A DNA stretch of 28,742 nt. It comes from a virus. The notes below the pieces were generated by a model. It was not told the origin of the DNA and ran no database searches. It saw nothing but the letters and a program-made list of their open reading frames with translations. The position numbers were made by a program, and so were the translations under genes. Shown here piece after piece: positions 2,531 through 28,742 of this stretch. The DNA lies in IMG/VR virus record IMGVR_UViG_3300011114_000101, positions 1-28,742 of that record. One strand, written 5' to 3'. Within the stretch, counting starts at the first letter, position 1, and each line of letters begins with the position of its first letter.

Positions 2531-2955
2531 GCAAACGCCCGTGTGCCTGATTTGTCAATAATCAGCGCCATTGCTCGAGGGTCAGCATCTTCAGTGTTTG
2601 GAATGCTTACATGAGTCCAGCGATCAAACTCACGAATTACTTGATCATATTCCAGATCAGAGCCAATAATTGCTTTGACAACTTCATCAGGTGTCATGCT
2701 TGGCACTCTAATATCAGCCGCACAGCCACGGCGATGTTGTGATTTATCTGATGATCCTACAGCCTTATTTACCTCTGCACTTCTAAAGGCAGAATTAATC
2801 ATAATAGGCTTACCGCCAAGCACAGTTTTAACTTGTTCTAAAAAATCAGCCAACCGATACAGATTTGCTAATTCATCTGCATCTGGCAGATTGTCAAATT
2901 CTCTGTGGTCAGTATGGGTCAATTCTTCCAAGGTAAAGTTTGGTGAAAGATTCAT
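2527..2955 (-). CDS. Endolysin, peptidase M15-type L,D/D,D-peptidase
   Basis: 142 residues with the peptidase M15A (VanY/zinc D-Ala-D-Ala carboxypeptidase-like) signature: SAFRSAEVN (55-63), then SQH (His74), AAD (Asp81), and the C-terminal EFDRWTHVSI with His115 as third zinc ligand and acidic residues at 109 and 111 as candidate general base. Such enzymes cut peptide cross-bridges in peptidoglycan. There is no signal peptide, so a holin should release it. ATG at 2955 follows AAGGA at a good distance and overlaps the Rz stop by four bases. Placement after spanins and holin-like genes supports a lysis role. It converges on the plus-strand cluster with a four-base stop overlap. Confidence 0.92.
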   Translation of the reverse strand: MNLSPNFTLEELTHTDHREFDNLPDADELANLYRLADFLEQVKTVLGGKPIMINSAFRSAEVNKAVGSSDKSQHRRGCAADIRVPSMTPDEVVKAIIGSDLEYDQVIREFDRWTHVSIPNTEDADPRAMALIIDKSGTRAFA

Positions 2956-3422
2956 GGTTTATTCCTTAGTGTTTGTCTGACTTCGTTGTAGGCGTTGATA
3001 CAGGTATTGTATTTTCTGGCAAGTTCGTCTGCTTCGTCTGTGATGGCGACAAGAGATTGAGCAAACGCTGGCTGAAGTTCGGCTGTACTGAGGTCAACTC
3101 CGCTGGTAGTGGGGGCATCTCCGGCGGGCTGTACGGCGCAGGACACCGGGACGCGCAGCCGGATAATGCCAGCAGCAATATCAGCATTGCGCTTGGTAAT
3201 TTGGACTCTTGCTTCATTGTTGGCTTTCACAAGTTGAACGGCTTGGGTGTTGACTGCGGCGACCAGCGCCTGTTCTTTCTGTCGGGCTTCTTCGTTGAGC
3301 TTGGCAATCTCAAGCTGCTGCTTCTCGACCTCAGCTTCAGCGCCCTTCCAGTACCCGCCAGAAAAGGCTGTAAGCACCGCTAGAGCGATGCCAAGCAGGA
3401 TGTAAGGGTTAAACAGGCTCAC
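2952..3422 (-). CDS. Rz: Rz-like inner-membrane spanin
   Basis: 156 residues with an N-terminal membrane anchor (about 7-22: YILLGIALAVLTAFSG), a long helical periplasmic coiled coil (about 28-90, repeated K/E/Q/A heptads), and a Cys-containing C-terminal part (Cys95, Cys141). This is the architecture of Rz-type i-spanins, which join an outer-membrane lipoprotein to fuse the two membranes at the last lysis step. The start is a GTG overlapping the stop of the upstream holin-like gene (GTGA). A complete Rz1-like lipoprotein gene lies inside it in another frame, which strongly supports the call. Identification rests on architecture and context rather than sequence identity. Confidence 0.85.
   Translation of the reverse strand: MSLFNPYILLGIALAVLTAFSGGYWKGAEAEVEKQQLEIAKLNEEARQKEQALVAAVNTQAVQLVKANNEARVQITKRNADIAAGIIRLRVPVSCAVQPAGDAPTTSGVDLSTAELQPAFAQSLVAITDEADELARKYNTCINAYNEVRQTLRNKP
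2966..3217 (-). CDS. Rz1: Rz1-like outer-membrane spanin lipoprotein, nested in Rz
   Basis: 83 residues in the +1 frame relative to Rz and wholly inside it. A lipoprotein signal peptide ends in the lipobox LSGC (Cys21) after LPSAMLILLLA. The mature part is short and proline-rich (CPAPYSPPEMPPLPAE), as in Rz1 proteins, which bind the Rz C-terminus across the periplasm. A weak purine-rich site precedes the ATG at 3217. Full nesting as in lambda Rz/Rz1 explains why the Rz C-terminal half also reads well in a second frame. Confidence 0.85.
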   Translation of the reverse strand: MKQESKLPSAMLILLLALSGCASRCPAPYSPPEMPPLPAELTSVQPNFSQRLLNLLSPSQTKQTNLPENTIPVSTPTTKSDKH

Positions 3423-5018: not shown

Positions 5019-7858
5019 TTGCCCAAGTCCTGTATTTTGTTTTTGCCTGTTTGCTGACCAAGTGCCTTAGATTTTTCCATTGCTTTTTCCATTTTTTTCA
5101 CTTCTTTGGCTTCAGCTCTTGCACCTAATTTTGTTTCAATTTTTTTGCCTAATTCTCGGCCTATATATGTTCCAGCAGCAATTGTGGTTGGATTTAAGTC
5201 ACTTGCATATCCAGCAACTGCCGCACCAAGACTACCGCCAACAGTTGTTGCGCCTTTTTCTAACAAACCAATACGTCTTGCTTGTTGACCAGCACCCTCA
5301 TATTTCATGCCTGGCGTAAATTGACCCACATAATTTAAAGCATGATATTTTTGCACTTCATTAGGCGGAAATGTTTCTAAAATCTTTTCGCCAACAATAG
5401 AATTTAATTTATTGTTTACAGCATTTGAATTCCATTCACCAACATTTGTAGCGCCTGCTTTATAAACTTCACGGGCTAATGCACCATCCATTTCAGCTAC
5501 AGCAGCAGCGGCAGATTGACGCAACTCAGGCGGTACTGGCGGCAAGCCCTCTGGCGCACCTCTAACACGACCATTGGCTAATTCGCTAAAAGTATCACGA
5601 ATGTGCCGCCATTCATCTTTACGCAAATTATTTAATGATGATAAAAGTTTTTCGGGCGCAACTTTTGAAGTTACAGTGCCATTTTCCCCAACTTCACCAA
5701 ATAATCTTTTGAATCCATTTGACCCAAGAATAGTTTTTTCAACTTGATGTATTTTGTCGCCAAGTTTGTATAACGCAGGATCAGCCACCGCCGCAATGTC
5801 TTTATCAATGGCTTGGTTAATTTTCCGAATAGTGTTAGCTCGTTCTGGAGTCCATGTTCCAGGCGCATTATTGCTTTTGCGAACAGCATCAAAAGCTGCA
5901 ACAGAACCAGGCGGGGCTATCGTTCCATCAGGTAATTCAAACCCTACTGTTTTTGCCAGTTCAAGTTCTTTTTGTGCGCCTTTTAAAAAACCCAAAGTTC
6001 CATCTTTTTCAGCAGTTGCTAATTGTTGAGCATTGCCAAAGAATGAATCAGCATGGTTAGTGTTAATTCGGTTGTCACCCATATTTTTATAGGCTGAATT
6101 GTAAATTTCTTTTTTAGATTGATTTAAATAACCTGTCAAACTTGATGATGCCATATCCTCACGGTCTACACCATGCGCCACATCATTGACAAAATTTCCA
6201 CGTTGCTCATCATTTGTAAAAGTTGATCTAGCGCCAGTAGCATTAACTCGATCTTCAGCATATTTAGATAAACCAACTTGTTCATTGGCAATTTGTTCTT
6301 TTAATTTCAAGCCCAATGGTGATGGTTCAGCCATGTTAGCCAAGCCATGCTCATTGCGTAGCAAATTATCGTTACCAGTTACAACGCCTGGCCTTGGTTT
6401 TAAATCAGGCAAAACTTCTTGAAACAGTTGTGATCGCAATTGCTGTTCGGAAACAGGTACATCTTTTGGAATTTTTGTAAGTTTGACTTGTGGGAAAACA
6501 CCCTCGCCACGAGCAGTTTCTTCGCCAGTAATCTTGCCAACAAAAGGATTGCTTTGCACGGCGGCTGCGCCAGCACTACCCGCTGGTGCTTGACGGGCTT
6601 CAAACTGTGCTTGCGCTTCTGCTTTGCTTAATTGACCAGGCCGTACAACTTCCAACTCACCCGCCATTTGGCGCAAAGGCTGAACGGCTTTGCTAATCAA
6701 AGGCTTTACTTGACCTACTACTTGCCCTGTCTCTTTAACAGCTTGAGGCAATGCAGTAGACCCAATAACCACCATGTTTCTTATATCTTCTGGCGGTAAG
6801 GTGACGTTAAATTTTGATTTCAAAGTTTCAGAAATTTGCTCTGGGGTCATTCCCATTGCATTAAACATTTTGTTTATTTGTTCAGCAATAGGCTGAGTTA
6901 TCCCGCCCAATGGTTGCTGATAAGTTTCTTTGCCTGTGATGCCCAAAACCTTACCTAAAGGCTGACTTGGCGCAATAAATTGACCAGCTTGTTTGCCTAA
7001 TTCTTCAGCTTTTTGAGGTGTAGTAAATGGACGCACAATAGCTTGTTGCACCGCACCATAGGTAGCAGGCAAAGCCTCATAAAGAGTATCAATAGCGCCA
7101 GCAGTTCTTTCGCCCAATTGCTGACGGGCTTCAAAGCCTTTTTTCAGCACATTGCCAAATATTTGTCTCACTGCTGTGCTTGGCTGGTCAATTGCACCTT
7201 GTACAGTAATAGGTGCAGCTTTGACTTTACCTCCAGCTTCACCCGCTTGACTATATCCCTCATAAGAACCACGACCAGCGCCTGCGGTACTTGTTGAGGC
7301 AATAGCAGCGGGTTGTGCGGCAACAGGTTTATTCAGAAAGAATGCTTCTAGAGGATCGTTAGCAACTGCTTGTGCTGGCGCAGCTTGTGTTTGTGCCGCA
7401 GGCGCAGCGGTTGGAGGTGGTTTAGCGGCGTTTCTTTCTTCAGCTACTGCATCTGGATACCCTGATGTATAACGATTAATCATTGATTTTTTCACATCAG
7501 CAGAAATTGTTTTATCTGCATTTGTTTTTGCCGCATACGCTTCTGGGGTTTGATATTGTGATACGAAAGGCGTTGCTTGGGTTTGTGCGGCTGGCGCAGC
7601 GGTTGCTGGTATTGCAGTTTTAGATTTACGGGCAATCTCTCGTTGCAGTGCAGCAATGTCGGCCTGATGCCTTATTTTTTCTTGTGGATCAGTTGCAGAT
7701 GCAAGTCTGCCTTGCGCTGCGCCTAATTCTTGTTGAATGATAGCCAGAGCATCTTGATCCCGCTTTGTCTGCACATCAGATGCAACGGTTTTGCCGCCAG
7801 TTGGCTTAGGTGGTGCAGCAACTGACCCACCAAAGAATTGTTCTAAAACATCAGCCAT
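5015..7858 (-). CDS. Large ejection/internal virion-type protein (gp16-like position)
   Basis: 947 residues. The N-terminal ~230 residues are low-complexity and Ala/Gln/Pro-rich, with a repeated AAPAAQTQA linker. The middle carries helical segments and a membrane-active-looking stretch, and the C-terminus has a Gly/Ala-rich hydrophobic segment (GGSLGAAVAGYASDLNPTTI) before a Lys/Glu-rich tail (EAKEVKKMEKAMEKSKAL). No enzymatic motif such as a lysozyme or transglycosylase signature was found. In P22 three ejection proteins (gp7, gp20, gp16) are encoded consecutively; here three such genes follow one another in the same direction and rough size order, with this the last and largest. A DNA-ejection channel role is inferred. 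ATG at 7858 follows GGGAG. Confidence 0.7.
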   Translation of the reverse strand: MADVLEQFFGGSVAAPPKPTGGKTVASDVQTKRDQDALAIIQQELGAAQGRLASATDPQEKIRHQADIAALQREIARKSKTAIPATAAPAAQTQATPFVSQYQTPEAYAAKTNADKTISADVKKSMINRYTSGYPDAVAEERNAAKPPPTAAPAAQTQAAPAQAVANDPLEAFFLNKPVAAQPAAIASTSTAGAGRGSYEGYSQAGEAGGKVKAAPITVQGAIDQPSTAVRQIFGNVLKKGFEARQQLGERTAGAIDTLYEALPATYGAVQQAIVRPFTTPQKAEELGKQAGQFIAPSQPLGKVLGITGKETYQQPLGGITQPIAEQINKMFNAMGMTPEQISETLKSKFNVTLPPEDIRNMVVIGSTALPQAVKETGQVVGQVKPLISKAVQPLRQMAGELEVVRPGQLSKAEAQAQFEARQAPAGSAGAAAVQSNPFVGKITGEETARGEGVFPQVKLTKIPKDVPVSEQQLRSQLFQEVLPDLKPRPGVVTGNDNLLRNEHGLANMAEPSPLGLKLKEQIANEQVGLSKYAEDRVNATGARSTFTNDEQRGNFVNDVAHGVDREDMASSSLTGYLNQSKKEIYNSAYKNMGDNRINTNHADSFFGNAQQLATAEKDGTLGFLKGAQKELELAKTVGFELPDGTIAPPGSVAAFDAVRKSNNAPGTWTPERANTIRKINQAIDKDIAAVADPALYKLGDKIHQVEKTILGSNGFKRLFGEVGENGTVTSKVAPEKLLSSLNNLRKDEWRHIRDTFSELANGRVRGAPEGLPPVPPELRQSAAAAVAEMDGALAREVYKAGATNVGEWNSNAVNNKLNSIVGEKILETFPPNEVQKYHALNYVGQFTPGMKYEGAGQQARRIGLLEKGATTVGGSLGAAVAGYASDLNPTTIAAGTYIGRELGKKIETKLGARAEAKEVKKMEKAMEKSKALGQQTGKNKIQDLGK

Positions 7859-19089: not shown

Positions 19090-20310
19090 TTAGGAAGCCA
19101 CTCGGCAAGCCAATTCGGGGTACAGAGGAGCCCAGCCATACAGCACATCAACACGAGTCGGGATCGAATCGTTGTTAATTGTGTATTGGCGAACAACACG
19201 CAGTGACAAGCCCAAGTCTTTGTCGCTTGCACGACCAGCGAAATGCACACCATCAGGCAATTCCAAATCGGCAGTAGCCAATGTGAAAGCATTTTTGTGC
19301 ATAACGATGTTTTGCGGTGACACTGCGCCAGCTTGGTTAAACGGGGTCACAGCAGAAGCGCCAGGGCTTGTGATGGACACGTTTTGGAACTGACCAGCAG
19401 AGATAACAGCAGGGCTAACGGTAACGGCATTACCACTGATGGCAGTGACAACGAAATTACGCAGCTTGTTGCTACCGTAGGCTTGACGGTTCTGAGGGTT
19501 GACAGCATACACGTTAGCGATGGTGAAAGTGTCACCAACGTTAGGAGTAAATGTGCCAGATTTTGTCAAGGTAAGTGCAGAAGTTTGCGCCCAACCAGAT
19601 GTCAAAATGCCAGAATCGGTGCTTGTGTTGATCGTTGCTGTACCAGTGTAAGTACCGAAAGTTTGAGCAGAAATGTTCTGATCCATCTTCCAGTTCATAC
19701 CAGCAGAGTCACGACCCATCATGCCTTTGGAATATTGCATACCAATACGGTCATTAGGCACAAACAGACCTTTCAAGCTATCCACGATTGTTGCGCCAGT
19801 AAACGGCTCAATAATGCATGAACGGCGACCATCACGAGGCGCACCCTCTGCATCCAAGTAGGCTTGGGCGGTCAGGTATGTCAACAGTGATGTAGGAGGT
19901 GTGCCAGCAGTACCAACGATGTTGGCAGTGTTCAGCTTCGCCATTGTTGTGCCGTCATAGTCAATTTTGTTGGCTACAGCAGCTACAGCAGGCTTCAGTA
20001 CACGGTCAGAGAACATATCCAAAGACAGAGCCAAGTCCTGAGTAGTGAACTGGGTATCAACGTGGAATTGTGTAGACAATGTAACGGGGGTGCTGGTTTC
20101 GTTGAAATCTTCGACATTCAGCGCAGGGCCAGATGTACCGATAAAACGACCAGGGCGGCGAACGTTCAAAGTTGCGCCAATCTTTGCGCCAGTGACGGCG
20201 AATTGATCATCATAGTTACGCATGACTTCAGAGGAGAAAGTCAACTCGTTTTCCAAGACCATCAACGCTTCGTTGGTGATCATGGAGATGGTAAGCAGAT
20301 TGTTGCTCAT
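19090..20310 (-). CDS. P22-type major coat protein
   Basis: 406 residues (P22 gp5 has 430). The N-terminus MITNEALMVLENELTF (10-25) and YDDQFAVTGAKIGATLNVRR (33-52) are diagnostic of the P22 coat family, with an HK97-like fold. The E-loop-like segment follows, and residues ~220-320 (SALTLTKSGTFTPNVGDTFT, FVVTAISGNAVTVSP) form an inserted beta domain analogous to the P22 I-domain. The C-terminal SLRVVRQYTINNDSIPTRVD and YGWAPLYPELACR are also family-typical. AAGGAAA precedes the ATG. Order scaffold then coat follows P22. Folding may involve GroEL, which makes the co-chaperonin at 27653-27910 of interest. Confidence 0.93.
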   Translation of the reverse strand: MSNNLLTISMITNEALMVLENELTFSSEVMRNYDDQFAVTGAKIGATLNVRRPGRFIGTSGPALNVEDFNETSTPVTLSTQFHVDTQFTTQDLALSLDMFSDRVLKPAVAAVANKIDYDGTTMAKLNTANIVGTAGTPPTSLLTYLTAQAYLDAEGAPRDGRRSCIIEPFTGATIVDSLKGLFVPNDRIGMQYSKGMMGRDSAGMNWKMDQNISAQTFGTYTGTATINTSTDSGILTSGWAQTSALTLTKSGTFTPNVGDTFTIANVYAVNPQNRQAYGSNKLRNFVVTAISGNAVTVSPAVISAGQFQNVSITSPGASAVTPFNQAGAVSPQNIVMHKNAFTLATADLELPDGVHFAGRASDKDLGLSLRVVRQYTINNDSIPTRVDVLYGWAPLYPELACRVAS

Positions 20311-20338
20311 TTCATTTCCTTATAAAAGATTTGATTTG

Positions 20339-21241
20339 TCAGCGGATTCGCCCTGCAAGTCGTGCTGCTTTCCAAGCCTGATAGTTGCCATGAAATTGAC
20401 GGTTTGAGTCAAGTTCTGTAACTGGCCCGTTTGCAGACGCTTTGATCGGGTTGATCGGCGCTGGCGCTTTACTTCTTCCAACAGTAGGCTTTGTCTGAGG
20501 CTCAGTCTTTTCAAACTTTGCTTCCAGTTTCCCAATTGTAGCCAAGGCTCTTGTCAAAGTCATGCCTTGCAGTTGTTCAGCTATGTCTGGATTTTCAGCC
20601 AAGTGATACAGGATTCGAGGGCCAACTTCTGATTCAAATATTGCGTCCCGCACTTCGTTGCTCACAACAACATCAGCAGAACCAACCATTGCTTCAAAAT
20701 CTGGTATCTCGCTCTTTGCAGAGTCAACCCGCTTTGCCCAAGTGTTTATCAATTGGTCTCGTTCGGCTTGAACCTTTGCCTGCACTTCTTTTTGCTTTTC
20801 ATCTTTCCATCGCTGATCTACTCGATAGTCTGTCAACGCCTTAGCGTATTCATACATATCGGAGAACTGCTCTGGCTGCGGCTCATCTTCGGTTACTTGC
20901 TCGGCTTTAGGCTTTGCTTTTTCCTCATAATCCCGCAACTTTGCTTCCAGTGATTGCCTAGCTTCACGTTCTTGTTGCGCTTCTTTACGCGCATCTTCAC
21001 GCTGCTTGGTGATCTCTGAAAACCTTTTCTCCAACTTAGGATTCTGTTTTCGATCCTCTACCGCTGTTGCCTCTTTCTCGCTCTCGGTTGGCTCACTCTG
21101 ATTGTGCGGCTCTGCTGGTGCAGCCTCGCTTGTATCAGCTAACCCAAGCCTCTTGGCGGTGAATTCAGCCATGTTCTCATTAGTAACCAGATTAGCGGCT
21201 ACTCTTGGCGGCGCTTGTGGCGCTTCCTGTACTTCTGACAT
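20339..21241 (-). CDS. Scaffolding protein
   Basis: 300 residues (P22 gp8 has 303), acidic-basic mixed, very rich in Glu, Lys, Gln and Ala. Long helical and coiled-coil stretches run from about 65 to 130 (EKRFSEITKQREDARKEAQQ; EREARQSLEAKLRDYEEKAK). The Pro/Ala-rich start and short basic C-terminal end (AWKAARLAGRIR) fit the coat-binding helix-loop-helix end of P22-type scaffolds. Position between portal and coat is decisive. A candidate promoter and leader hairpin lie upstream (21264-21322). No protease domain is seen. Confidence 0.83.
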   Translation of the reverse strand: MSEVQEAPQAPPRVAANLVTNENMAEFTAKRLGLADTSEAAPAEPHNQSEPTESEKEATAVEDRKQNPKLEKRFSEITKQREDARKEAQQEREARQSLEAKLRDYEEKAKPKAEQVTEDEPQPEQFSDMYEYAKALTDYRVDQRWKDEKQKEVQAKVQAERDQLINTWAKRVDSAKSEIPDFEAMVGSADVVVSNEVRDAIFESEVGPRILYHLAENPDIAEQLQGMTLTRALATIGKLEAKFEKTEPQTKPTVGRSKAPAPINPIKASANGPVTELDSNRQFHGNYQAWKAARLAGRIR

Positions 21242-21263
21242 AGGTTTGATCCTAAGAATTAAC

Positions 21264-21280
21264 CCAGTTGACCCAACTGG
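21264..21280 (-). promoter_or_regulatory. Leader stem-loop before the scaffold gene
   Basis: A perfect 7-bp inverted repeat, CCAGTTG / CAACTGG with a 3-base loop, lies 22 bases before the scaffold ATG and would fall in the leader of a transcript from the candidate promoter just upstream. No U-run follows on either strand, so it is not a terminator. It could be an RNA operator or stabiliser. A role in regulating scaffold synthesis is a hypothesis. Confidence 0.45.
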
Positions 21281-21293
21281 TAAGGTTTTGTGG

Positions 21294-21322
21294 TTTTTAC
21301 CACGAAATCATGAATCAGTCAA
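21294..21322 (-). promoter_or_regulatory. Candidate sigma70-like promoter for the head genes
   Basis: On the minus strand TTGACT (21322-21317, five of six to consensus) and TAAAAA (21299-21294, four of six) are separated by 17 bases. The -35 box starts right after the portal stop codon. The predicted start site is near 21287, about 45 bases before the scaffold ATG. It would raise scaffold and coat expression over that of portal and terminase. Confidence 0.45.
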
Positions 21323-23476
21323 TCACTGTGCCATAGGCGGTTGCGGTGGCTCAAGCAATGGGCTTTGGCCCATATCAATATCTTGGGCGGCAAACTGAAC
21401 ATACTGCTGCTGCTCGGCATTCCTACGGGCGATTTCCTCATTCAAACGGCTAGTGTCCATGCGGTGCAACAGCAGTTGAACAATTGCCTCAATTTCAGTC
21501 TTGTTCTGGCTAGTGATAGAACGGGTGTTTTGGTCATTAACCTTAACTTCAGCCATTGTTTCGGTGTTGTGCGCTTTGGCGGTCTGACGCATAAGTTCCC
21601 GCTTGGTCTCAGCATCTTGCTTGACTTGCTCGATGTCGGCACGTTGTTGCATCGCTAGTTGCATCGCTGCCATCTGGTTTTGCATATCCTGCACGGTTTT
21701 CTTGGCCTGTGCCAGTTCCATTTGAACTTGGGGCGGCACATCGGATTTTTCATCAATCTGCGCCAACGGATTCATGGCAGCAAGGCGGTCAGCAATTACG
21801 TCAGCGCCAGGGAAGTCCATATTCCTAAACACCAAGTCACCTGCCACATTGAACAATTCAGGCTTTGCCATCAGCGGCATTAACGCATCAACGGCTTGCT
21901 GGCGCTTAGTCATAAAGCCTGGCCCTGTGTCCATCACTACGTCATATTCACCCACTGTCACATCGTTTAGCACCGTTTGAATGCCATCATCTGTGGTTTT
22001 TTGCTCGTTGATAGTCTCCATGCTTGGCTGACCATCGCTGCCAATAATCCGCATTACCCGCTGGGTGTCGTAGATTTTTGGCACTAAATCAAGAATGATC
22101 TTGCCCGTGTGCCGAATGGAACGGGTCATGTTGTCGTAAAAGTGGAAGTTAGACAAATCAACCTGATTTTGCTGACCCGCCAAGGCTTTGCCCGATATAT
22201 TGCCGCTTGGCAACTGATTGGGATCAAGGATACCCAGCACCATCTGCAAATCAGCAGAAATAGCGCCTGCGGCTTCCATGATGCCCATTGGTGGCGGTTC
22301 AGGTTGTAGACGCTGCGGCACAGGTGCTGGTGCGCCGTCAATGTCTTTTTGCTTGTAGCGAAGCACAGGGCTTGACTTGATGTTAGCCAGCGCCCATTCG
22401 CTCTCGTGTCCCTCGTCTTGTCCCTCAGCCAGCAGCCATTTGGCTTTAGGTGCAAGGGCAATGCTCTCGGTCATACTGGTGCGCCAGAAGTTGTACATAC
22501 GCTGTGGGTCTTTTGCAAACCGCACCAAACCGTATTTCTTGCGCTTATCGTCCACAATGACCTGTGCGCCATAGCAAGGCACAACGGGGATATATTTACC
22601 CGCCCAAGTCTTCTCCTCAATAATCTCCATTGCGGTCATCTTGACCCATTTAACAGCCTTGCGAAACGATTCCCGTTGATCAAGTACCGTCAACCCTGCG
22701 GCTTCTACCCGTTCAAAGAACGAATTGGAGTCGGCAAAGTGTCTTGAACCATCACTCAGCAAATACAACTTGGCTTTTTCACGCTCAATATAGAAATACT
22801 CAGCAAGGCGAATGTCCTCTTTGGTCACCCAGCTTGCGGTGTCATCCCCTGTAGACCGCTGGGCAAACGATGCCCCGTCATCTGCATTCGGGTAATGTTC
22901 TCGAAATATCTTCTTGTCCATCACTGTTGTGATTAGGCAACGCTCGGCATCTGACCCATCAGGCAACACAGAATTGGGGTCAAAGTACACCGTAAACGGG
23001 TTGTCTATGGTGTCAATGTAGATTTCTTGATCAAACGAATCTTCACTTGTGTATCGAGTATTGATGCGCCAGTAGCCCCAACCCATCCTGACCGCATAGT
23101 CAAAGGCGGTGTCATAGGCAGTATCAGCATTGGAGTTGACCTCAATGTGCCGCATGATGCCCTCAATGACTTGGGCAACCTTGTAATCAGCCAAGTTATT
23201 AACAGCTTGTACCTTTAGGCGGGGGCGCTGCTGGCGCTGCTGATTGGTGACTTGGCGAATGTAGGCATCAATCTTGTTGATGGTCAGGCACGGTCTGGCT
23301 TCTACGTTTCGGCTGTTCTGTATCTCAACAGGCCATTGGTCACCAGCGGCAAACTTAATATCGTTCAGCGCCTCGGCTCGGTTGTTACTGTCAGCATCGT
23401 TAACCAGCCGCCAAAACTTAATGGCTTCGTTGATGCGTGTGTCGGCACTTGATGTTTGTGCTTGATAGTCAGACAT
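21323..23476 (-). CDS. P22-type portal protein
   Basis: 717 residues (P22 gp1 has 725). Family-typical segments: N-terminal INEAIKFWRLVNDADSNNRA and ALNDIKFAAGDQWP, then RPCLTINKIDAYIRQVTNQQ, the wing region with DAERCLITTVMDKKIF, and the crown/stem part with VVPCYGAQVIVDDKRKKYGL. The last ~150 residues are helical and Gln/Ala/Glu-rich (QMELAQAKKTVQDMQNQM; AMQLAMQQRADIEQVKQD), consistent with the long C-terminal barrel of P22 portals. It forms the dodecameric DNA port and binds the terminase during packaging. It is flanked by large terminase and scaffold. Confidence 0.93.
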   Translation of the reverse strand: MSDYQAQTSSADTRINEAIKFWRLVNDADSNNRAEALNDIKFAAGDQWPVEIQNSRNVEARPCLTINKIDAYIRQVTNQQRQQRPRLKVQAVNNLADYKVAQVIEGIMRHIEVNSNADTAYDTAFDYAVRMGWGYWRINTRYTSEDSFDQEIYIDTIDNPFTVYFDPNSVLPDGSDAERCLITTVMDKKIFREHYPNADDGASFAQRSTGDDTASWVTKEDIRLAEYFYIEREKAKLYLLSDGSRHFADSNSFFERVEAAGLTVLDQRESFRKAVKWVKMTAMEIIEEKTWAGKYIPVVPCYGAQVIVDDKRKKYGLVRFAKDPQRMYNFWRTSMTESIALAPKAKWLLAEGQDEGHESEWALANIKSSPVLRYKQKDIDGAPAPVPQRLQPEPPPMGIMEAAGAISADLQMVLGILDPNQLPSGNISGKALAGQQNQVDLSNFHFYDNMTRSIRHTGKIILDLVPKIYDTQRVMRIIGSDGQPSMETINEQKTTDDGIQTVLNDVTVGEYDVVMDTGPGFMTKRQQAVDALMPLMAKPELFNVAGDLVFRNMDFPGADVIADRLAAMNPLAQIDEKSDVPPQVQMELAQAKKTVQDMQNQMAAMQLAMQQRADIEQVKQDAETKRELMRQTAKAHNTETMAEVKVNDQNTRSITSQNKTEIEAIVQLLLHRMDTSRLNEEIARRNAEQQQYVQFAAQDIDMGQSPLLEPPQPPMAQ

Positions 23477-23503
23477 TTTTAGCCCTTTGTACTCATTGGG
23501 GGA

Positions 23504-24778
23504 TTATCCCATCCAACTGCCAACATTGGCAATCTGCTCTTGTTTCTTGCGCTTCGCAGGCTCTTTAATCATAAGGGCAATGTACCTAAATGCGTCAGCC
23601 CCGTGCGAATAATGATCATGCAGCGGTGTCCTGCTGAATTGCCCTGTGTCTACGTCTACCTCATATCTGTAGTGGCGCAGGCAAGCCAGGCCATCGGCGG
23701 CGTGTTCACGGTCAAACCAGCAGCTTGGGAATATCGTTCTAGCGGCGTTGATTGAGTCCACAATCGGCACTTTAGGCAGAATGCGGGTCTTGTACCCTGC
23801 CGCCCTCACAATATCATCAATTGACCGCCCTGCTGCCGCCAACGTCTTATTCTCTGCATCGTGCGGTAGCCAGATGGTGTCGTACACATACCCGTAGGTT
23901 TGCATAGTTGCCAGATAGTAGCTGATGGTTTTCTGGCTATCCTCAATGTATCTGATTAGCCTGGTCTCCATACCCACAAACTGCAAGAACCAGATAGCGG
24001 TGCTGTCTGACCAGCCCAAATCAAACACAGCATGAACTGGCTTGGTTGCGTCATAAGCCACACGGGTGATGCGCCCCTCTTTTTCGGCCTGCTGCATTTC
24101 CTTGGCAAAGATTGCACCATCCACTGTTTGGCGGCATAGCCCTTCCCAAACTTGGTTATAGGCTTCTTCGTCACGCTCTTTTAGCGCATCTTTTTCCAGC
24201 CGCAGGGTTTCGGGAAACCAAGGGTTATCTGACCAGTTGATCTTTATCTGGATGCAGTCATCAGGCGGTTTCAGGACAAACCGCTGGTAAGTCTCGTCTG
24301 TTTCCAACTCGGGGTTAAACGAAATCCATATCTCGCTGCCCTGCTTTCGGATGGTAGGTATTAGGATGTTCCAGCTTAGGCGGCTTACCGTTTGGGCTTC
24401 TTCTACCCAACAAATGTCCACACCCTCATAGGATTTGATGTTTGCAATGTTGTTCTTTAGACCAGCAAAGGCAAACTCAGTGCCATTTTTGCTGCGGATG
24501 CTGGCCTGTGTTATTTCATAAAAACCAAGTAATCCAAGGCTTTCAATCTGATCGCACAACAGCTTATGCACCGAATCCCGCATAGAAGTCATGAATTCTC
24601 GGGCGCACAGGATACGCATTGGGCTTTTAGCACCAAGGATAAGCAATGCCCTGGCTATGCCCCAACTTTTTGCCCCGCCCCTGCCGCCGTAGGCTACCTT
24701 GTAACGGCTCTTTTGAAACAGACCCTCTAGCTTTACAGGAAATTCTGCGTTAGCTATTGCGTCAAGTACTTCACTCAT
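23504..24778 (-). CDS. terL: Terminase large subunit (PBSX/Terminase_3-type)
   Basis: 424 residues, the usual length. The ATPase part has Walker A GGRGGAKS (31-38), Walker B VDICWVEEA (120-128) with catalytic Glu126 or Glu127, and coupling motif WISFNPE (151-157). The RNase H-like nuclease has VFDLGWSDST (Asp253), LPHDAEN (Asp307) and DHYSHGADAFRY (Asp388 and Asp395). The motor pumps DNA into the prohead and cuts the concatemer. Members of this family often package by headful (pac) cutting; that is family knowledge, not visible here. It overlaps the small terminase by eight bases. Confidence 0.96.
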   Translation of the reverse strand: MSEVLDAIANAEFPVKLEGLFQKSRYKVAYGGRGGAKSWGIARALLILGAKSPMRILCAREFMTSMRDSVHKLLCDQIESLGLLGFYEITQASIRSKNGTEFAFAGLKNNIANIKSYEGVDICWVEEAQTVSRLSWNILIPTIRKQGSEIWISFNPELETDETYQRFVLKPPDDCIQIKINWSDNPWFPETLRLEKDALKERDEEAYNQVWEGLCRQTVDGAIFAKEMQQAEKEGRITRVAYDATKPVHAVFDLGWSDSTAIWFLQFVGMETRLIRYIEDSQKTISYYLATMQTYGYVYDTIWLPHDAENKTLAAAGRSIDDIVRAAGYKTRILPKVPIVDSINAARTIFPSCWFDREHAADGLACLRHYRYEVDVDTGQFSRTPLHDHYSHGADAFRYIALMIKEPAKRKKQEQIANVGSWMG

Positions 24779-25109
24779 TGGGCTTTACAAAGGTTACTTG
24801 AATGCCCTGCAAAGGCTCACCATTTGCGCCTGTAACCTCGGCCTTAACGGTTTCTGACCATTTCATCTGCGTCTTTGTCCACCAGATCAGGCTGGTTGTG
24901 TCCCCAGATGTAGCCTTTTGAAACAGCGTCTTGGCTATCTGCCCGTTGGCCTTAGCCTTGCCCATATCCAATTCAGCACGGTAATGCTTGCGTAAAGTCT
25001 TGTCATCAATGCCTACCAATACCGCTATGGATTCATGCGGCAAGCCTAACCCACTGCTGGATTCAACCAGTTTCTGGCTTTCGGGCGTTGGAATGTGTTC
25101 GTCAGACAT
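24771..25109 (-). CDS. terS: Terminase small subunit-like protein
   Basis: 112 residues. Residues ~21-60 form a helix-turn-helix (GLPHESIAVLVGIDDKTLRK, HYRAELDMGKAKAN), followed by IAKTLFQKATSGDTTSLIWW and TQMKWSE, a pattern typical of small phage terminase-like DNA-binding proteins. It recognises the packaging start site and recruits the large subunit. It directly precedes terL and overlaps it by eight bases. The ATG at 25109 has no convincing ribosome-binding site (CTCTATAAA lies just before it), so translation may be weak or depend on upstream ribosomes. Confidence 0.85.
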   Translation of the reverse strand: MSDEHIPTPESQKLVESSSGLGLPHESIAVLVGIDDKTLRKHYRAELDMGKAKANGQIAKTLFQKATSGDTTSLIWWTKTQMKWSETVKAEVTGANGEPLQGIQVTFVKPNE

Positions 25110-25131
25110 TTTATAGAGGGGAAGTGTTACA

Positions 25132-26295
25132 TTAGTTTACTGATTCAGCAGGGATTGTCAACAGCACGGCTTTTTTTCCTGTAAAGTCTTCCCATCGTTT
25201 AACTATTACATCGCAATACTTGGGGTCTAACTCCATCAGTCTGGCATGGCGGTTCTGCTTTTCACAAGCAATCAATGTGCTACCGCTACCCCCAAAATAA
25301 TCCAACACAATGTTGTTTGCCTTGGTGCTGTTTTTAATTGCACGTTCACTTAACGCTGTTGGCTTTTGTGTTGGGTGGACATATTTGGTATCTTTGGCAA
25401 TGTTCCACAAATCAGATTCGTTCTTTATGCTTGGGTCAATTAAACCATCGAACAAAATAAATTCATGCTGATGCCTGTATCCCCGCCCCATACCAAATAC
25501 ATTTTTTGCCCAAACAATACAGGCTTTTGGCTTTAATGCTGTTTGCAATATGCCATAAAACGCCCAATTGCAACAAATGTAATAACTGTTTGGTCTAAAT
25601 GCTTCAAAGGTTTGCAACCAATCTTTTATAAAGTCGGCAAACTGCTCATCAGGCAAATCATCATTTTTAATTACATCAAACTTGCCGCTTCTACCGTTAA
25701 ATGCAACGTTGTAAGGCGGGTCAGTAAATACCATGTCCGCACGTTGCCCCATTAACAATTCTTGTACCGCATCCACGTTAGTGCTGTCGCCACACATTAA
25801 ACGATGGTTGCCCAATTTGTAAATGTCGCCTAATTTAGTGATTGGTTCATCAGGTACATCAGGCACAGCATCCTCGTCTGTTAACCCCTCAATTACTTTA
25901 GGCTCAAGCAGTGCGTCTAACTCCTTGGTATCAAACCCTAAAATTTCCAACGCAAACCCGTCTGCCAGCAAGTCGTTAAGCTCAATGGTCAGCATTTCAT
26001 TGTCCCAGCCAGCGTTAAGCGCCAAGCGGTTGTCGGCAATGATGTAGGCTTTCTTTTGAGTTTCGGTCAGGTCTGCCAGTTCTATGGTTGGCACTTCCTT
26101 GTAACCTAGCTTACGGGCAGCAAGCAGCCTGCCATGGCCTGCAATGATGCCGTTGCTGCCGTCCACCAGTATCGGGTTAGTCCAGCCAAATTCCTTAATG
26201 CTTGCCGCTATTTGTGCCACTTGCTCATCAGAGTGGGTGCGGCTGTTCTTTACATAAGGGATTAGTTCTGTAACTTTCTTTTGGGTGATTTTCAC
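25132..26295 (-). CDS. ParB-like domain fused to DNA methyltransferase
   Basis: 387 residues. The N-terminal ~130 residues are a ParB/Srx-type domain: NSRTHSDEQVAQIAASIKEF, then IIAGHGRLLAARKLGYKEVP with the GHGR motif (53-56). The C-terminal methyltransferase (about 155-375) has catalytic DPPY (192-195), HPTQKP (307-312) and the AdoMet-binding FGGSGST (334-340), with DPPY before the FxGxG motif as in beta-class N6-adenine/N4-cytosine enzymes. It probably modifies phage DNA to escape host restriction; no partner nuclease is in the window. The start is a GTG overlapping the upstream stop (GTGA). Recognition sequence unknown. Confidence 0.93.
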   Translation of the reverse strand: MKITQKKVTELIPYVKNSRTHSDEQVAQIAASIKEFGWTNPILVDGSNGIIAGHGRLLAARKLGYKEVPTIELADLTETQKKAYIIADNRLALNAGWDNEMLTIELNDLLADGFALEILGFDTKELDALLEPKVIEGLTDEDAVPDVPDEPITKLGDIYKLGNHRLMCGDSTNVDAVQELLMGQRADMVFTDPPYNVAFNGRSGKFDVIKNDDLPDEQFADFIKDWLQTFEAFRPNSYYICCNWAFYGILQTALKPKACIVWAKNVFGMGRGYRHQHEFILFDGLIDPSIKNESDLWNIAKDTKYVHPTQKPTALSERAIKNSTKANNIVLDYFGGSGSTLIACEKQNRHARLMELDPKYCDVIVKRWEDFTGKKAVLLTIPAESVN

Positions 26296-26408
26296 TTTTT
26301 ATTCTTGGCTTTGGCCTTTTCAGCCTCACGCTTTACGCTGTATGCGATGGCAACGGCTTGCTTTTGAGGCTTGCCTGCTTGCATCTCCTTGGCAATGTTT
26401 TTACTCAT
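26292..26408 (-). CDS. 38-residue basic phage protein
   Basis: MSKNIAKEMQAG then KPQKQAVAIAYSVKREAEK and a Lys/Ala tail. I recall small phage proteins carrying the same KPQKQAVAIAYSV core. The ATG at 26408 overlaps the stop region of the upstream gene, and its stop overlaps the methyltransferase GTG start (GTGA at 26292-26295), so translation is coupled. Function unknown; the basic helix may bind nucleic acid. Confidence 0.75.
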   Translation of the reverse strand: MSKNIAKEMQAGKPQKQAVAIAYSVKREAEKAKAKNKK

Positions 26409-26589
26409 TGCCTTGGGTGTCATTGATTTGATCAGTGGCATTTGCCATCTCCTTGGACATTTCTGCCAATTTTTGCTTTAACTCAGTGTTTTCCCTAAAA
26501 AGGGCAGCGGCCTGCGCCATCGCAGAGTCCCGCTGTCCCTCCAGCATCTCAACTAAAGCCTGAACTTCAATATCGGGATGTTTCAGCAT
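26401..26589 (-). CDS. Small coiled-coil protein
   Basis: 62 residues, essentially one long helix with heptad character (IEVQALVEMLEGQRDSAMAQ, ALFRENTELKQKLAEMSKEM), ending in a polar tail. It starts immediately after the stop of the 198-residue gene and overlaps the next by eight bases. No family was recognised. The compact coupling and codon pattern support a real gene; function unknown. Confidence 0.7.
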   Translation of the reverse strand: MLKHPDIEVQALVEMLEGQRDSAMAQAAALFRENTELKQKLAEMSKEMANATDQINDTQGNE

Positions 26590-27186
26590 TTAAGCAACCG
26601 TACTGACCATGACGTAGTAGGTTGTGCCGCCGCTGGTCACTGGAATGGTATGGGTAACCACTGGTGAACCGACTTTGGCTCTGAAAACGCCTGTTGCGCT
26701 AACCGCAGGCATTGCCGCAAAGTTTCCGACTTCACCTGTGCCTGAGTTTGTTACACGCAAAAATGATGTGTTTGACCATGTGCCGCCTGTTGCAAAATCA
26801 GAATCCAACTGCAATGCCGCCAATGTACCGCCTGGGTTTGTTGACGAACCGCCAATGGTTGCCCTGATTGCATTTGCTGCACCCGAAATTGTGCCTGATC
26901 CATTAATGGATGTGCTAATGTGTGATCCATTGATTGTTCCAGCAGTAGCAGCGCCAGCACCTGTAACCACAGAAAACGCTCTGAATGTTTCACCGCTACC
27001 TGTGCTACTAAATGTCAGCTTTTGGTAGGTTAAACGGGTGTCGCCACTTGTGGCGCTGGTTGTGGCATATGCGCCGTTGATGATGCCACTAGATGTAACA
27101 GCTACTGGAACGGCTGAATTGCCAACCTGTACTGATACGAACTCGGGGTCTGCGTAAGCTACGCCTGTTGCGATTGAATTTGCCAT
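26590..27186 (-). CDS. Beta-rich structural-type protein of unknown function
   Basis: 198 residues rich in Ser, Thr, Gly, Ala and Val, with strand-loop patterns throughout (FVSVQVGNSAVPVAVTSSGI; RLTYQKLTFSSTGSGETFRA; AIRATIGGSSTNPGGTLAAL; TTYYVMVSTVA at the end). The repeated NSGTGEVGNFA / TNPGGTLAALQLDS segments suggest a trimeric or jelly-roll-like virion protein. It sits far from the other structural genes, upstream of the methyltransferase. A good AAAGGAAAT site precedes the ATG at 27186. A decoration or fibre role is possible but unproven. Confidence 0.7.
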   Translation of the reverse strand: MANSIATGVAYADPEFVSVQVGNSAVPVAVTSSGIINGAYATTSATSGDTRLTYQKLTFSSTGSGETFRAFSVVTGAGAATAGTINGSHISTSINGSGTISGAANAIRATIGGSSTNPGGTLAALQLDSDFATGGTWSNTSFLRVTNSGTGEVGNFAAMPAVSATGVFRAKVGSPVVTHTIPVTSGGTTYYVMVSTVA

Positions 27187-27216
27187 GATATTTCCTTTAT
27201 TTTTTCCAAAAGGGAT

Positions 27217-27489
27217 TTAACAATTCCAGTTTTTTAGACTGGCCTTTGCCCGTTCTGCTGGGCCTTTAGAGTGTTTTACCACCCCCTCCATCCTAGCGCA
27301 AAAACTGGCTTTTCGTCCAGCATCTGCTTTGGTTTTTGGATTTGGGGCAGGCGGTTTGAGATTTGCATTGTTCTTTGCGTTGTATTCAGCACGACCTTTT
27401 GCCGTCATTCCAGCACCCTTTTCTGTCGGGTTATAGGTTTTACCCTTACCCGTGGTCTTGTGGGGAATAGGCTTGTCGTGCTTACTCAT
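27217..27489 (-). CDS. Small Lys/Asn-rich phage protein (DUF6321-like)
   Basis: 90 residues, very basic: KGKTYNPTEKGAGMTAKGRA, EYNAKNNANLKPPAPNPKTK, then ASFCARMEGV and a C-terminal AERAKASLKNWNC. The 'SFCARM.GV ... KGPAERAK.SL..W.C' end resembles a small phage family I recall as DUF6321. The two conserved-looking Cys (SFC and final C) and many Lys suggest a nucleic-acid- or capsid-interior-binding protein, but function is unknown. It overlaps the upstream gene by four bases (ATGA). Confidence 0.78.
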   Translation of the reverse strand: MSKHDKPIPHKTTGKGKTYNPTEKGAGMTAKGRAEYNAKNNANLKPPAPNPKTKADAGRKASFCARMEGVVKHSKGPAERAKASLKNWNC

Positions 27490-27650
27490 TTCTTTTTCGC
27501 CGTTTTTGCGGATTGTTTAAATGCTTCAGCAGTCGGTGCGCCCTTTGCGCCTGGCGCTCTCATACGCTCTGGCGTTTTACCCGCAGCCTTTTGGCGTTCT
27601 ATGCGCTCTTGCTTTGCATGAATGTTGGCGTAAAGCCCCTGTTTTGCCAT
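27486..27650 (-). CDS. Small basic phage protein
   Basis: 54 residues from the ATG at 27650: MAKQGLYANIHAKQERIERQ, then GKTPERMRAPGAKGAPTAEA and a SAKTAKKK tail. Small proteins with the same MAKQGLYANIHAK opening and APGAKGAPTAEAF middle occur in many phages, as I recall, with no known role. A longer frame to 27674 would read MRCCGGLK first and overlap the co-chaperonin gene; the internal ATG with an AGG site is preferred. It is coupled to the following gene by ATGA. Confidence 0.78.
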   Translation of the reverse strand: MAKQGLYANIHAKQERIERQKAAGKTPERMRAPGAKGAPTAEAFKQSAKTAKKK

Positions 27651-27652
27651 TT

Positions 27653-27910
27653 TTAAGCCTCCACAACAGCGCAAATGTCTGCTTCTTGAATGATCTGGTA
27701 ATCTTGCCCATCAATACGGTGTACAGGCCAATTAAGGTAATCCCCGTTCCCGTACTTAATGAAGTCGCCAACTTGTGTTTGAGTCACCATTGGGCCTGCT
27801 GCCACAATTGTTCCCTCATTAAACGGCTCTTTGTTGTTGACGTAGATTATGTCCGACAAATTGCGGGTAATTGGCTTTACCACCACCCTGTCACGCAACG
27901 GCTTGATCAT
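27653..27910 (-). CDS. GroES-like co-chaperonin (Cpn10)
   Basis: 85 residues (bacterial GroES is about 97). The N-terminal IKPLRDRVVVKPI and C-terminal ADICAVVEA match both ends of GroES. Between them, residues 16-30 (RNLSDIIYVNNKEPF) occupy the mobile-loop position, with IIYV in place of the GroEL-binding IVL tripeptide, then EGTIVAAGP, QVGDFIKYGNGDYL and YQIIQEADI. It would cap host GroEL and alter folding of phage proteins, as T4 gp31 does. AAGGAG precedes the ATG at 27910. It is short in the mobile loop and roof region, but all core strands seem present. Confidence 0.88.
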   Translation of the reverse strand: MIKPLRDRVVVKPITRNLSDIIYVNNKEPFNEGTIVAAGPMVTQTQVGDFIKYGNGDYLNWPVHRIDGQDYQIIQEADICAVVEA

Positions 27911-28121
27911 TTGATCTCCTTGTGTATTTGCGTTTCTGGGGGGCTTCAGTGGTCTGGTCGGTGGTTATGTCGTACACCTTTTTTGTGGTTTTTGGCTCAT
28001 GCTGACCACACCAATCAGATTTGTGTTTGTTCTGCTGGTGCGGATACCGGCGGCATACGCCCATAACTTGCTGGTCTCGAAAAAATCGACACCCGCCGCA
28101 ATTAGAATGTTCATCAGCCAT
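27891..28121 (-). CDS. Small four-cysteine zinc-binding-type protein
   Basis: 76 residues. The N-terminal half has Cys8-x2-Cys11, Cys23 and Cys38 (NCGGCRFFRD ... GVCRRYPHQQ ... DWCGQHEP), a likely zinc- or iron-binding knuckle, with His residues nearby. The C-terminal half is polar and basic (APQKRKYTRRSND). It overlaps the co-chaperonin gene by 20 bases. A strong AAGGAG site lies before the ATG at 28121, downstream of the hairpin at 28154-28173. I recall similar CGGCRF...C..YP small proteins in phages; function unknown. Confidence 0.78.
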   Translation of the reverse strand: MADEHSNCGGCRFFRDQQVMGVCRRYPHQQNKHKSDWCGQHEPKTTKKVYDITTDQTTEAPQKRKYTRRSNDQAVA

Positions 28122-28153
28122 TCAAAACTCCTTTTTTGTTTGGTTAGTAGACC

Positions 28154-28173
28154 CTGCCGATTCGCCTCGGCAG
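28154..28173 (-). promoter_or_regulatory. Intergenic stem-loop in accessory operon
   Basis: A perfect 7-bp inverted repeat CTGCCGA / TCGGCAG with a six-base loop lies in the 62-base gap between the 67-residue gene and the zinc-binding gene. Neither strand has a U-run after it, so it is not a standard terminator. It may be an mRNA processing or stabilising structure. Confidence 0.4.
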
Positions 28174-28183
28174 TGGTTTACGC

Positions 28184-28387
28184 TTAATCTTGGTAGCACT
28201 TGCGGTCATGGACATACGCCACACCGCTGGTTTTACCGCCGTCAAATTTCTTGTCTGCGCCCACAGCATTGGTAGCTGCGTTTGGAATATTCTTTTTGGC
28301 GCTGCCTTGTGAGCCAGTACCGTCAGAGGATGTTACGCCTTTGGGGATTGGAATGTTAGCGCCGTATTTGCCGTTCATATCTTTCAT
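28184..28387 (-). CDS. Small Gly/Lys-rich phage protein
   Basis: 67 residues, probably disordered: MKDMNGKYGANIPIPKGVTS, then GTGSQGSAKKNIPNAATNAV and a C-terminal GGKTSGVAYVHDRKCYQD with one Cys. TAAGGAG lies at a good distance before the ATG at 28387. It is the second visible gene of the minus-strand operon. No family named; I recall short phage proteins with a similar V.Y..DRKCYQ end, of unknown role. Confidence 0.72.
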   Translation of the reverse strand: MKDMNGKYGANIPIPKGVTSSDGTGSQGSAKKNIPNAATNAVGADKKFDGGKTSGVAYVHDRKCYQD

Positions 28388-28398
28388 GGGGTTTCTCC

Positions 28399-28742
28399 TT
28401 AGTTGAGGAATCGCAATTTATACAAAGTCGAATTGATCAAATCAGCGATTTCATCAACGAGATTTTGCAATTCTGAGTCTTGAGGCAGTTCTTTTCGTGC
28501 TTCTTCGACAAAATCTTTGAGGTTGTCCAAATACTTTACGGGGTCTTTTTCGAGATGAAACTCATCAGGAAACTTTTTAAGCTGCTCATAGCGACCCATG
28601 TACGCTTCGGCAAATTGATCAACCAATTCAATAATTTGGGCATAATATTCCCCTAGTGCCATGTGCTTGGCAAAGCTGTCAGTAGACCAGTGCATGAAAT
28701 GCGTAACCGTGCTGCTATGCAGCAAAGTGGCAACAAATTCGG
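28399..28742 (-). CDS. Ferritin/Dps-like helical protein (5' end missing)
   Basis: The frame stays open to the right edge (upstream codons read EFVATL), so the true start lies outside; a TTG at 28725 is only a formal start. The visible ~113 residues are helical. Counting from base 28725, His9, His21, Asp36 and Glu40 (TVTHF, AKHMALGEYY, VDQFAE) reproduce the spacing I recall for E. coli Dps ferroxidase ligands (His51, His63, Asp78, Glu82); the fifth Dps ligand (Asp67) is Leu here, with Glu26 one residue on. The HW pair and VDxxAE also resemble Dps. It may belong to a phage helical family of unknown function such as DUF5856. Metal or DNA binding is inferred. Confidence 0.75.
   Translation of the reverse strand, partial: EFVATLLHSSTVTHFMHWSTDSFAKHMALGEYYAQIIELVDQFAEAYMGRYEQLKKFPDEFHLEKDPVKYLDNLKDFVEEARKELPQDSELQNLVDEIADLINSTLYKLRFLN

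Follow-up and report, generated by a model that had tools for sequence, protein, structure and literature searches.

Dps and Dps-Like Proteins in Phages

The ferroxidase site of Dps forms from two chains at a two-fold contact. A BC helix lies between helices B and C of the Dps bundle, and the N-terminal tail of the 167-residue E. coli protein binds DNA, such a tail not being found in all Dps. Dps or ferritin-like proteins are already known in Lactobacillus phages (excerpt of PMC6669764) and in gut phages (excerpt of PMC8008677). The phage-borne Dps of Lactobacillus phage Semele and Streptomyces phage Gilson carry the Dps ligand set, like the phage genes of the DUF5856 family treated here, but are much closer to Dps and match PHROG 3636 at E-values of 4.4e-49 and 5.6e-33, respectively. 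The Gilson protein also matches PHROG 858 weakly (3.7e-4), as does E. coli Dps (0.0087), whereas the Semele protein gives no match to it at 0.01. DUF5856 is a family separate from, and shorter than, the phage-borne Dps of PHROG 3636.

DUF5856 (PF19174 and PHROG 858) includes RI.-1 (MobD.6) of phage T4, a protein of 128 residues with a longer N-terminus than the protein analyzed here, encoded directly after rI. RI.-1 and its relatives in Straboviridae share the Pfam and PHROG families and the predicted fold of that protein, to which they are 24–29% identical. In the excerpts of the literature on RI.-1, MobD.6 and the PHROG name that were available, no link of the protein to Dps or iron was found, and the term DUF5856 was not found in the literature searched. 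A Dps link is already hinted at by the name of the PHROG; what is added here is the residue mapping, a corrected ligand, the inclusion of T4 RI.-1, and two virion proteomes.

The Gene and Its Family

The window, that is, the whole stretch of DNA analyzed, is a virus record of 28,742 bases, and a DUF5856 gene on its minus strand (28399..28742) is cut by the window's end. The final frame (28399–28740, minus strand) is open up to the edge and comprises 113 codons, compared with 119 in eight identical loci. The first-pass annotation had placed the N-terminus outside the window, and this is borne out by these loci, which are 100% identical across the 113 residues: in all eight, an ATG lies 18 bases upstream of the first complete codon, which puts it about 16 bases past position 28742 and gives a protein of 119 residues that begins with MNEEVAEF (5983–6339 in one of them, L002). 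The TTG at 28725 is an unlikely start, as all eight have this ATG farther upstream. Residues are nevertheless counted below from this TTG, residue n corresponding to residue n+11 of the full protein.

Two profile comparisons had been proposed in the first-pass annotation, and they came out differently. The window protein matches DUF5856 (PF19174) with 88.1 bits against a gathering cut-off of 34.6 (E 8.6e-25, profile positions 1–94 of 94) and is, on this profile match, a member of that family. In contrast, at a threshold of E 0.001 the window's record yields no match to Ferritin (PF00210), which was detected in 14 of 14 control genomes, and this family is absent from the 25 of 38 Pfam families listed for 37 aligned members. 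These 37 members, 24–100% identical to the full protein, all match both PF19174 and PHROG 858, the latter being matched by the window protein at E 6.2e-28 (profile 17–128 of 129). Among NCBIfam models, 19 families matched weakly, the best being FlaG (E 0.0038), and three Dps models were each matched by one member (E 0.0094 to 0.087).

PHROG 858 bears the label "starvation-inducible transcriptional regulator." According to this name, the protein would be a DNA-binding regulator of transcription, and the ValerieMcCarty authors group it with DNA-associated proteins (excerpt of PMC13119998). Such a role is scarcely credible, since the label may be a name inherited from Dps, and the window protein, for which no Pfam family besides DUF5856 rises above its cut-off, is acidic (pI 4.66, charge −12) and begins at helix A.

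The family is common in phages. Of the 50,697 phage records in a collection, 1,351 were hit by the 113-residue part (E 0.001) and 1,382 by the full protein (E 0.1), mainly enterobacterial phages. Searches of bacterial genomes with close patterns gave 128 and 62 pattern matches, none of which was confirmed as a DUF5856 relative; plasmids searched with a single query (L124) gave no match at E 0.01; and PF19174 left a signal below its cut-off in one of the 14 control genomes (B. subtilis). In these searches, such a mini-Dps was thus found only in viruses, as a family separate from canonical Dps.

By family search, other window genes that were tested encode a P22-like portal, large and small terminase subunits, a major head protein, an endolysin and an Rz-like spanin, and the region 20000–28742 has no near match among named phages. 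The spanin frame (2952–3422, minus strand) contains a frame opening with a lipoprotein-like signal (2966–3217, minus strand), by eye possibly a nested Rz1, and is followed by a frame matching endolysin PHROG 894 (2527–2955). Elsewhere, a ParB N-terminal domain is fused to an N6/N4 DNA methylase (25132–26295, minus strand), and a small protein (27217–27489, minus strand) matches DUF6321 (PF19846, E 2e-16).

Kinship with Dps in Profile Searches

The window sequence alone finds no Dps in the PDB, its best match being a Plasmodium protein (0.14). A family profile built from 37 sequences gives three rows of neutrophil-activating protein, a Dps, in the first places (E 3.8e-4 to 5.8e-4), followed by CAIP (0.002), a Dps family protein (0.006) and a designed protein (0.017), after which additional Dps rows are interspersed with other helical proteins; Dps-type names account for 12 of the 44 rows obtained at E 10. 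The same leaders appear from 1.9e-4 with a profile led by T4 RI.-1, in which the designed protein (0.0077) precedes the Dps family protein (0.015).

The reverse search leads to the same kinship. A profile of 12 Dps proteins was run over 9,605 distinct frames, including 201 of the family, and DUF5856 frames occupied places 1–117, the best with E 4.8e-6. At E 0.01, it recovered 50 of the 201 family frames and no others; the corresponding numbers were 142 and one at E 1, 193 and 33 at E 10, and 200 and 305 at E 100. Among reversed frames the best E-value was 0.11, itself from a reversed family frame. Profile–profile comparison of DUF5856 with Dps gave E 2.8e-5 and a probability of 74%, and PHROG 3636, which E. 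coli Dps matches at 3.5e-27, is matched by 11 of the 37 DUF5856 members at 0.01 and by the T4-like member L174 at 8.3e-7.

Predicted Fold

The full protein is predicted with high scores (pLDDT 93.2, pTM 0.87) as four helices, at residues 2–25, 29–56, 73–88 and 95–117 of the full numbering. The four-helix bundle expected in the first-pass annotation is therefore what the model contains, and no other fold was found. Two features of Dps are lacking in this model: residues 57–72 form no helix that could be the BC helix, the block 61–70 having a pLDDT of 76, and no N-terminal tail precedes helix A, which starts at residue 2 of 119.

In a Foldseek search against the PDB, Dps chains make up most of the best 50 matches listed, the first being 1dps_D (TMq 0.70, E 0.087), although no match reaches E 0.001; the same list includes ferritins, bacterioferritin and a pectin methylesterase inhibitor. 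Dps chains also dominate the best 50 matches listed by VIA-align 2, where M. smegmatis Dps2 (Z 14.4, 2.3 Å, 119 residues aligned) and E. coli Dps (Z 13.1, 2.4 Å, 118 aligned) are to be read against five mostly helical models that lack a clear match, for which the best Z is typically 14. Because such unmatched models reach Z values of about 14, sequence and residues were weighed as much as Z. Other ferritin-like proteins, including bacterioferritin, YciE/YciF and PA2169-type proteins, have the same kind of bundle (Z 11.6–13.6), but the DUF5856 profiles reach Dps first in this comparison, which covers fold and profile. A library of viral structures gave 17 matches at 0.001, with phage proteins without a telling name in the top rows and, among others further down, a pithovirus protein, the "DpsA" of uncultured phage cr106_1 and a fadolivirus protein (1.1e-3). 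The model of T4 RI.-1, covering 127 of its 128 residues with the last one missing (pLDDT 89.8, pTM 0.84), reaches Z 14.2 with Dps2; its Foldseek list is led by Brucella Dps (0.021), with pectin methylesterase inhibitor third and CopM also listed, none at 0.001.

The weak Foldseek E-values and the general similarity of helical bundles would be in keeping with an unrelated four-helix bundle whose likeness to Dps is fortuitous. This explanation is already disfavored and highly improbable, since the Dps profile ranks DUF5856 above all other frames down to place 117 and puts four Dps ligands on identical residues in the family.

Correspondence of Residues

The first-pass annotation had noticed that His9, His21, Asp36 and Glu40 are spaced 12, 15 and 4 residues apart, together with HW and VDxxAE motifs. 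These spacings are present in the frame 28399–28740, with HW at residues 12–13 and VDQFAE at 35–40. Its equation of His9 with Dps His51, based on the equal spacing of 12, does not hold. Three printed alignments (the PDB profile search, the profile–profile comparison and the Dps-profile scan) place His12 (His23 of the full protein; 28690..28692, minus strand) on His51, which rules out His9 (His20; 28699..28701, minus strand) as the counterpart of that ligand; it is Dps Lys48 that aligns with His9, and phage VR7 has Lys at this position. Except for L174, the three alignments have a gap of three in the A–B loop, which is three residues shorter than that of Dps in 181 of 182 sequences, and because of this shorter loop the equal spacing of 12 is accidental. 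The other three residues are assigned as before: His21 (His32; 28663..28665), Asp36 (Asp47; 28618..28620) and Glu40 (Glu51; 28606..28608), all on the minus strand, are the counterparts of Dps His63, Asp78 and Glu82, respectively. In the structural alignments, the first pairs set model residue 1 on E. coli Dps residue 28 or 29, and residue 12 of the T4 model on Dps residue 30; if helix A is ungapped, these pairs would favor His12 in most rows.

The mapping was extended to 50 domains above the HMMER inclusion limit, comprising 48 that came from an initial scan centered on the window protein, plus L174 and L252. His63, Asp78 and Glu82 of Dps fall on identical residues in all 50, and His51 falls on His in 49, with one gap. 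Dps Lys48 is likewise replaced by His in 49 domains with one gap, and Trp52 is kept in 48, with one Phe and one gap. H. pylori NAP also carries HxxHW. In contrast, the place of Asp67 is taken by Gly (40), Lys (5), Arg (2), Ala (1), Glu (1) or Gln (1), and that of Arg83 by Ala (41), Ser (6), Arg (2) or Thr (1). L174 (locus 2986–3381), a T4-like member, has three extra loop residues, aligns with Dps without gaps from His51 to Glu82 and carries Glu at the place of Asp67; it is a good bridge for structure work.

DUF5856 is thus supported as a remote homolog of Dps by profiles in both directions, by the four-helix model and by the residue mapping. It shares the predicted four-helix fold and counterparts of His51, His63, Asp78 and Glu82 with Dps, and the window member also has that of Trp52. 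It is shorter, however (119 versus 167 residues in E. coli), and the window protein lacks Asp67, Arg83, the BC helix (in the model) and the N-terminal tail. Relative to Dps, it has His9 and Asp91 (Asp102; 28453..28455, minus strand) in addition, the latter matching no Dps-conserved residue in the profile alignment. Because Asp67, the BC helix and the tail are not found, the window protein is not filed as Dps. Of the earlier reading, the ferritin-like prediction stands, specified as remote homology with Dps, and His9 as the ligand counterpart of His51 falls.

Conservation

The pattern H-x11-H-x14-D-x3-E occurs in one of the 164 stop-to-stop frames of 60 or more residues in the window, namely the DUF5856 frame. 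Among 11,201 frames of the collected loci, counted with copies unmerged and Dps loci excluded, it occurs in 266, of which 258 belong to DUF5856 (253 by script and five by eye) and the remaining eight look, by eye, like one unrelated protein. Judged from these frames, the pattern would rarely be produced by chance alone, and at the level of aligned sequences it is conservation that shows the residue set to be no accident.

Conservation was assessed in 182 distinct sequences, obtained from 258 loci by merging identical proteins, dropping the short L123 and L173 and including the window protein; they form 11 clusters at 60% identity. His12, His21, Asp36 and Glu40 are invariant in all 182, as are His20 and Gly55 of the full numbering, and Asp102 is identical in 180 with gaps in the other two, this invariance being partly built in as the sequences were gathered by likeness to a few queries. 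T4 RI.-1 has the same six conserved residues as the window protein. The position of Dps Asp67 had been described as unconserved, and indeed it is Gly25 in the window protein and varies widely among the 182 (Gln 62, Gly 58, Arg 27, Asn 21, Lys 5, Glu 5, Asp 3, Ala 1).

As a counter-check, eight further records from a lower ranking were read by eye in a 13-row alignment. His12, His21, Asp36 and Glu40 are kept in all eight; in full numbering, His23, His32, Asp47, Glu51 and Asp102 are present in 13 of 13 rows and His20 in 12, the more distant relative VR7 having Lys, and Gly55 is replaced by Ala in one row. Variation among homologs had been named as evidence that would speak against the first reading: none of its four residues changes in the 182 sequences, but its His9 does in VR7.

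Genomic Context and Virion Association

The gene following the DUF5856 gene in the window encodes 67 amino acids (28184..28387, minus strand), and its counterpart in L002 has no Pfam or PHROG match at 0.01. Further downstream lies a gene for a GroES-like co-chaperonin (27653..27910, minus strand; PF00166, E 1.6e-7; PHROG 3188). A GroES-like gene also occurs two genes after the DUF5856 gene in MW202520, and in DSL-LC05 a portal gene lies between the two.

The position of the T4 gene points to an alternative, in which a Dps-derived protein retains a metal site of structural function, such as a zinc site, and acts not as an iron oxidase but as a protein partner, for example of antiholin RI or of RIII during lysis inhibition. 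In all seven annotated Straboviridae records viewed (RB16, T4, S16, PSTRCR_121, VR7, L9-6 and ValerieMcCarty03), the DUF5856 gene directly follows rI or a lysis-inhibition gene, which it overlaps by 4–20 bases in six. It adjoins genes annotated as endolysin in GB2A, "holin" in P19250A and peptidase M15 in MW202828, and over-expressed T4 rI.-1 slightly prolongs lysis inhibition (Golec et al., 2010, as reported in an excerpt of the review PMC6832632). The loss of Asp67 would also suit a structural site. Other neighborhoods argue against this alternative: judged on L002, the window gene adjoins a small gene and, upstream, an HNH nuclease gene, unlike the T4 gene beside rI, and elsewhere a portal gene or a gene for a RusA-type nuclease lies upstream. 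RaK2 has a DUF5856 protein but no recognized T, RI, RI.1 or RIII according to its authors, who doubt lysis inhibition in this phage (excerpt of PMC3622015). The conserved residue set, moreover, is the Dps center minus Asp67. This alternative is accordingly possible, yet unlikely.

A constant lysis neighborhood was rejected. Among 42 representatives (one without neighbors and one without a downstream neighbor), lysis-type genes adjoin the T4-like members and a few others; five have an upstream frame of 709–722 residues whose start resembles that of the portal annotated in L278, and others have nuclease-like frames as neighbors. Neighbors were surveyed by eye except in annotated records, the family searches covering the frames of the window and L002. 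The "holin" gene of Methylophilaceae phage P19250A (L085, 5345–5782) comes directly after DUF5856, and its annotation may be wrong because the frames at the same place in the related L101 and L104 start as Cys-rich proteins.

Two virion proteomes contain members of the family. ORF78 of LIMEstone1 (13.15 kDa) was detected in the virion with three unique peptides and 28.21% coverage (PMC3296691, Table 2) and is labeled "confirmed structural protein" in the phage record. ValerieMcCarty03 gp108, whose gene adjoins a lysis-inhibition gene, and ValerieMcCarty04 gp100 gave 26 and 27 spectra in CsCl-purified virions, which exceeds the authors' limit of 15 spectra and places them among 40 high-confidence virion proteins (excerpt of PMC13119998). 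ORF78 and gp108, the two proteins covered by the family check, match PF19174. These detections could mean that the bundle is a building block of head or tail in which the metal site serves stability alone. The spectra are few, however, compared with 1126 and 1158 for the capsid protein (excerpt of PMC13119998), and T4 propagates as a subline whose rI.-1 is frameshifted. As one or possibly both of two T4 sublines carry this frameshift (excerpt of PMC8573959), rI.-1 seems dispensable in the laboratory. A role as virion building block is therefore very unlikely, and the detection may reflect co-purifying cages or contamination.

Proposed Site and Function

The reading we favor, with a probability of roughly 0.58, is that of a shortened phage relative of Dps with an inter-subunit metal site, at which Fe(II) would be oxidized by peroxide so that phage DNA is protected; the analysis itself bears on family, predicted fold, homology with Dps and residue conservation, and pairing, metal, oxidation and protection are what we infer by analogy with Dps. 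An α-helix rises 1.5 Å per residue, and His21 and Asp36, 15 residues apart on one predicted helix, would thus be about 22 Å from each other, so that a single site made of the four residues needs two chains. Two chains would most likely pair in such a way that His12 and His21 from one come together with Asp36 and Glu40 from its partner and form a metal site akin to the Dps ferroxidase center, in which the extra His9 perhaps substitutes for the missing Asp67. This putative site would most likely bind and oxidize Fe(II), consuming peroxide without producing hydroxyl radicals, and iron would thereby be kept from damaging phage DNA during infection; zinc or manganese may be alternative metals. The DUF5856 protein probably works like Dps, and in some phages it is detected with the virion.

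A wider version of this proposal is a long shot. It holds that a minimal Dps-derived iron oxidase, present in many phages and delivered with the DNA in some, would disarm Fenton chemistry near the phage genome as it enters or replicates, and that in T4-like phages the same iron or peroxide chemistry would be coupled to lysis inhibition by way of the rI operon.

One of the members of this family, which is common among the phage records searched, is a T4 gene; no biochemical role was found for it. A Dps-like site in this family names the residues to mutate and the reaction to assay, and it raises the question of whether phages control iron and peroxide while they infect, and of a link between such control and the delay of lysis in T4.
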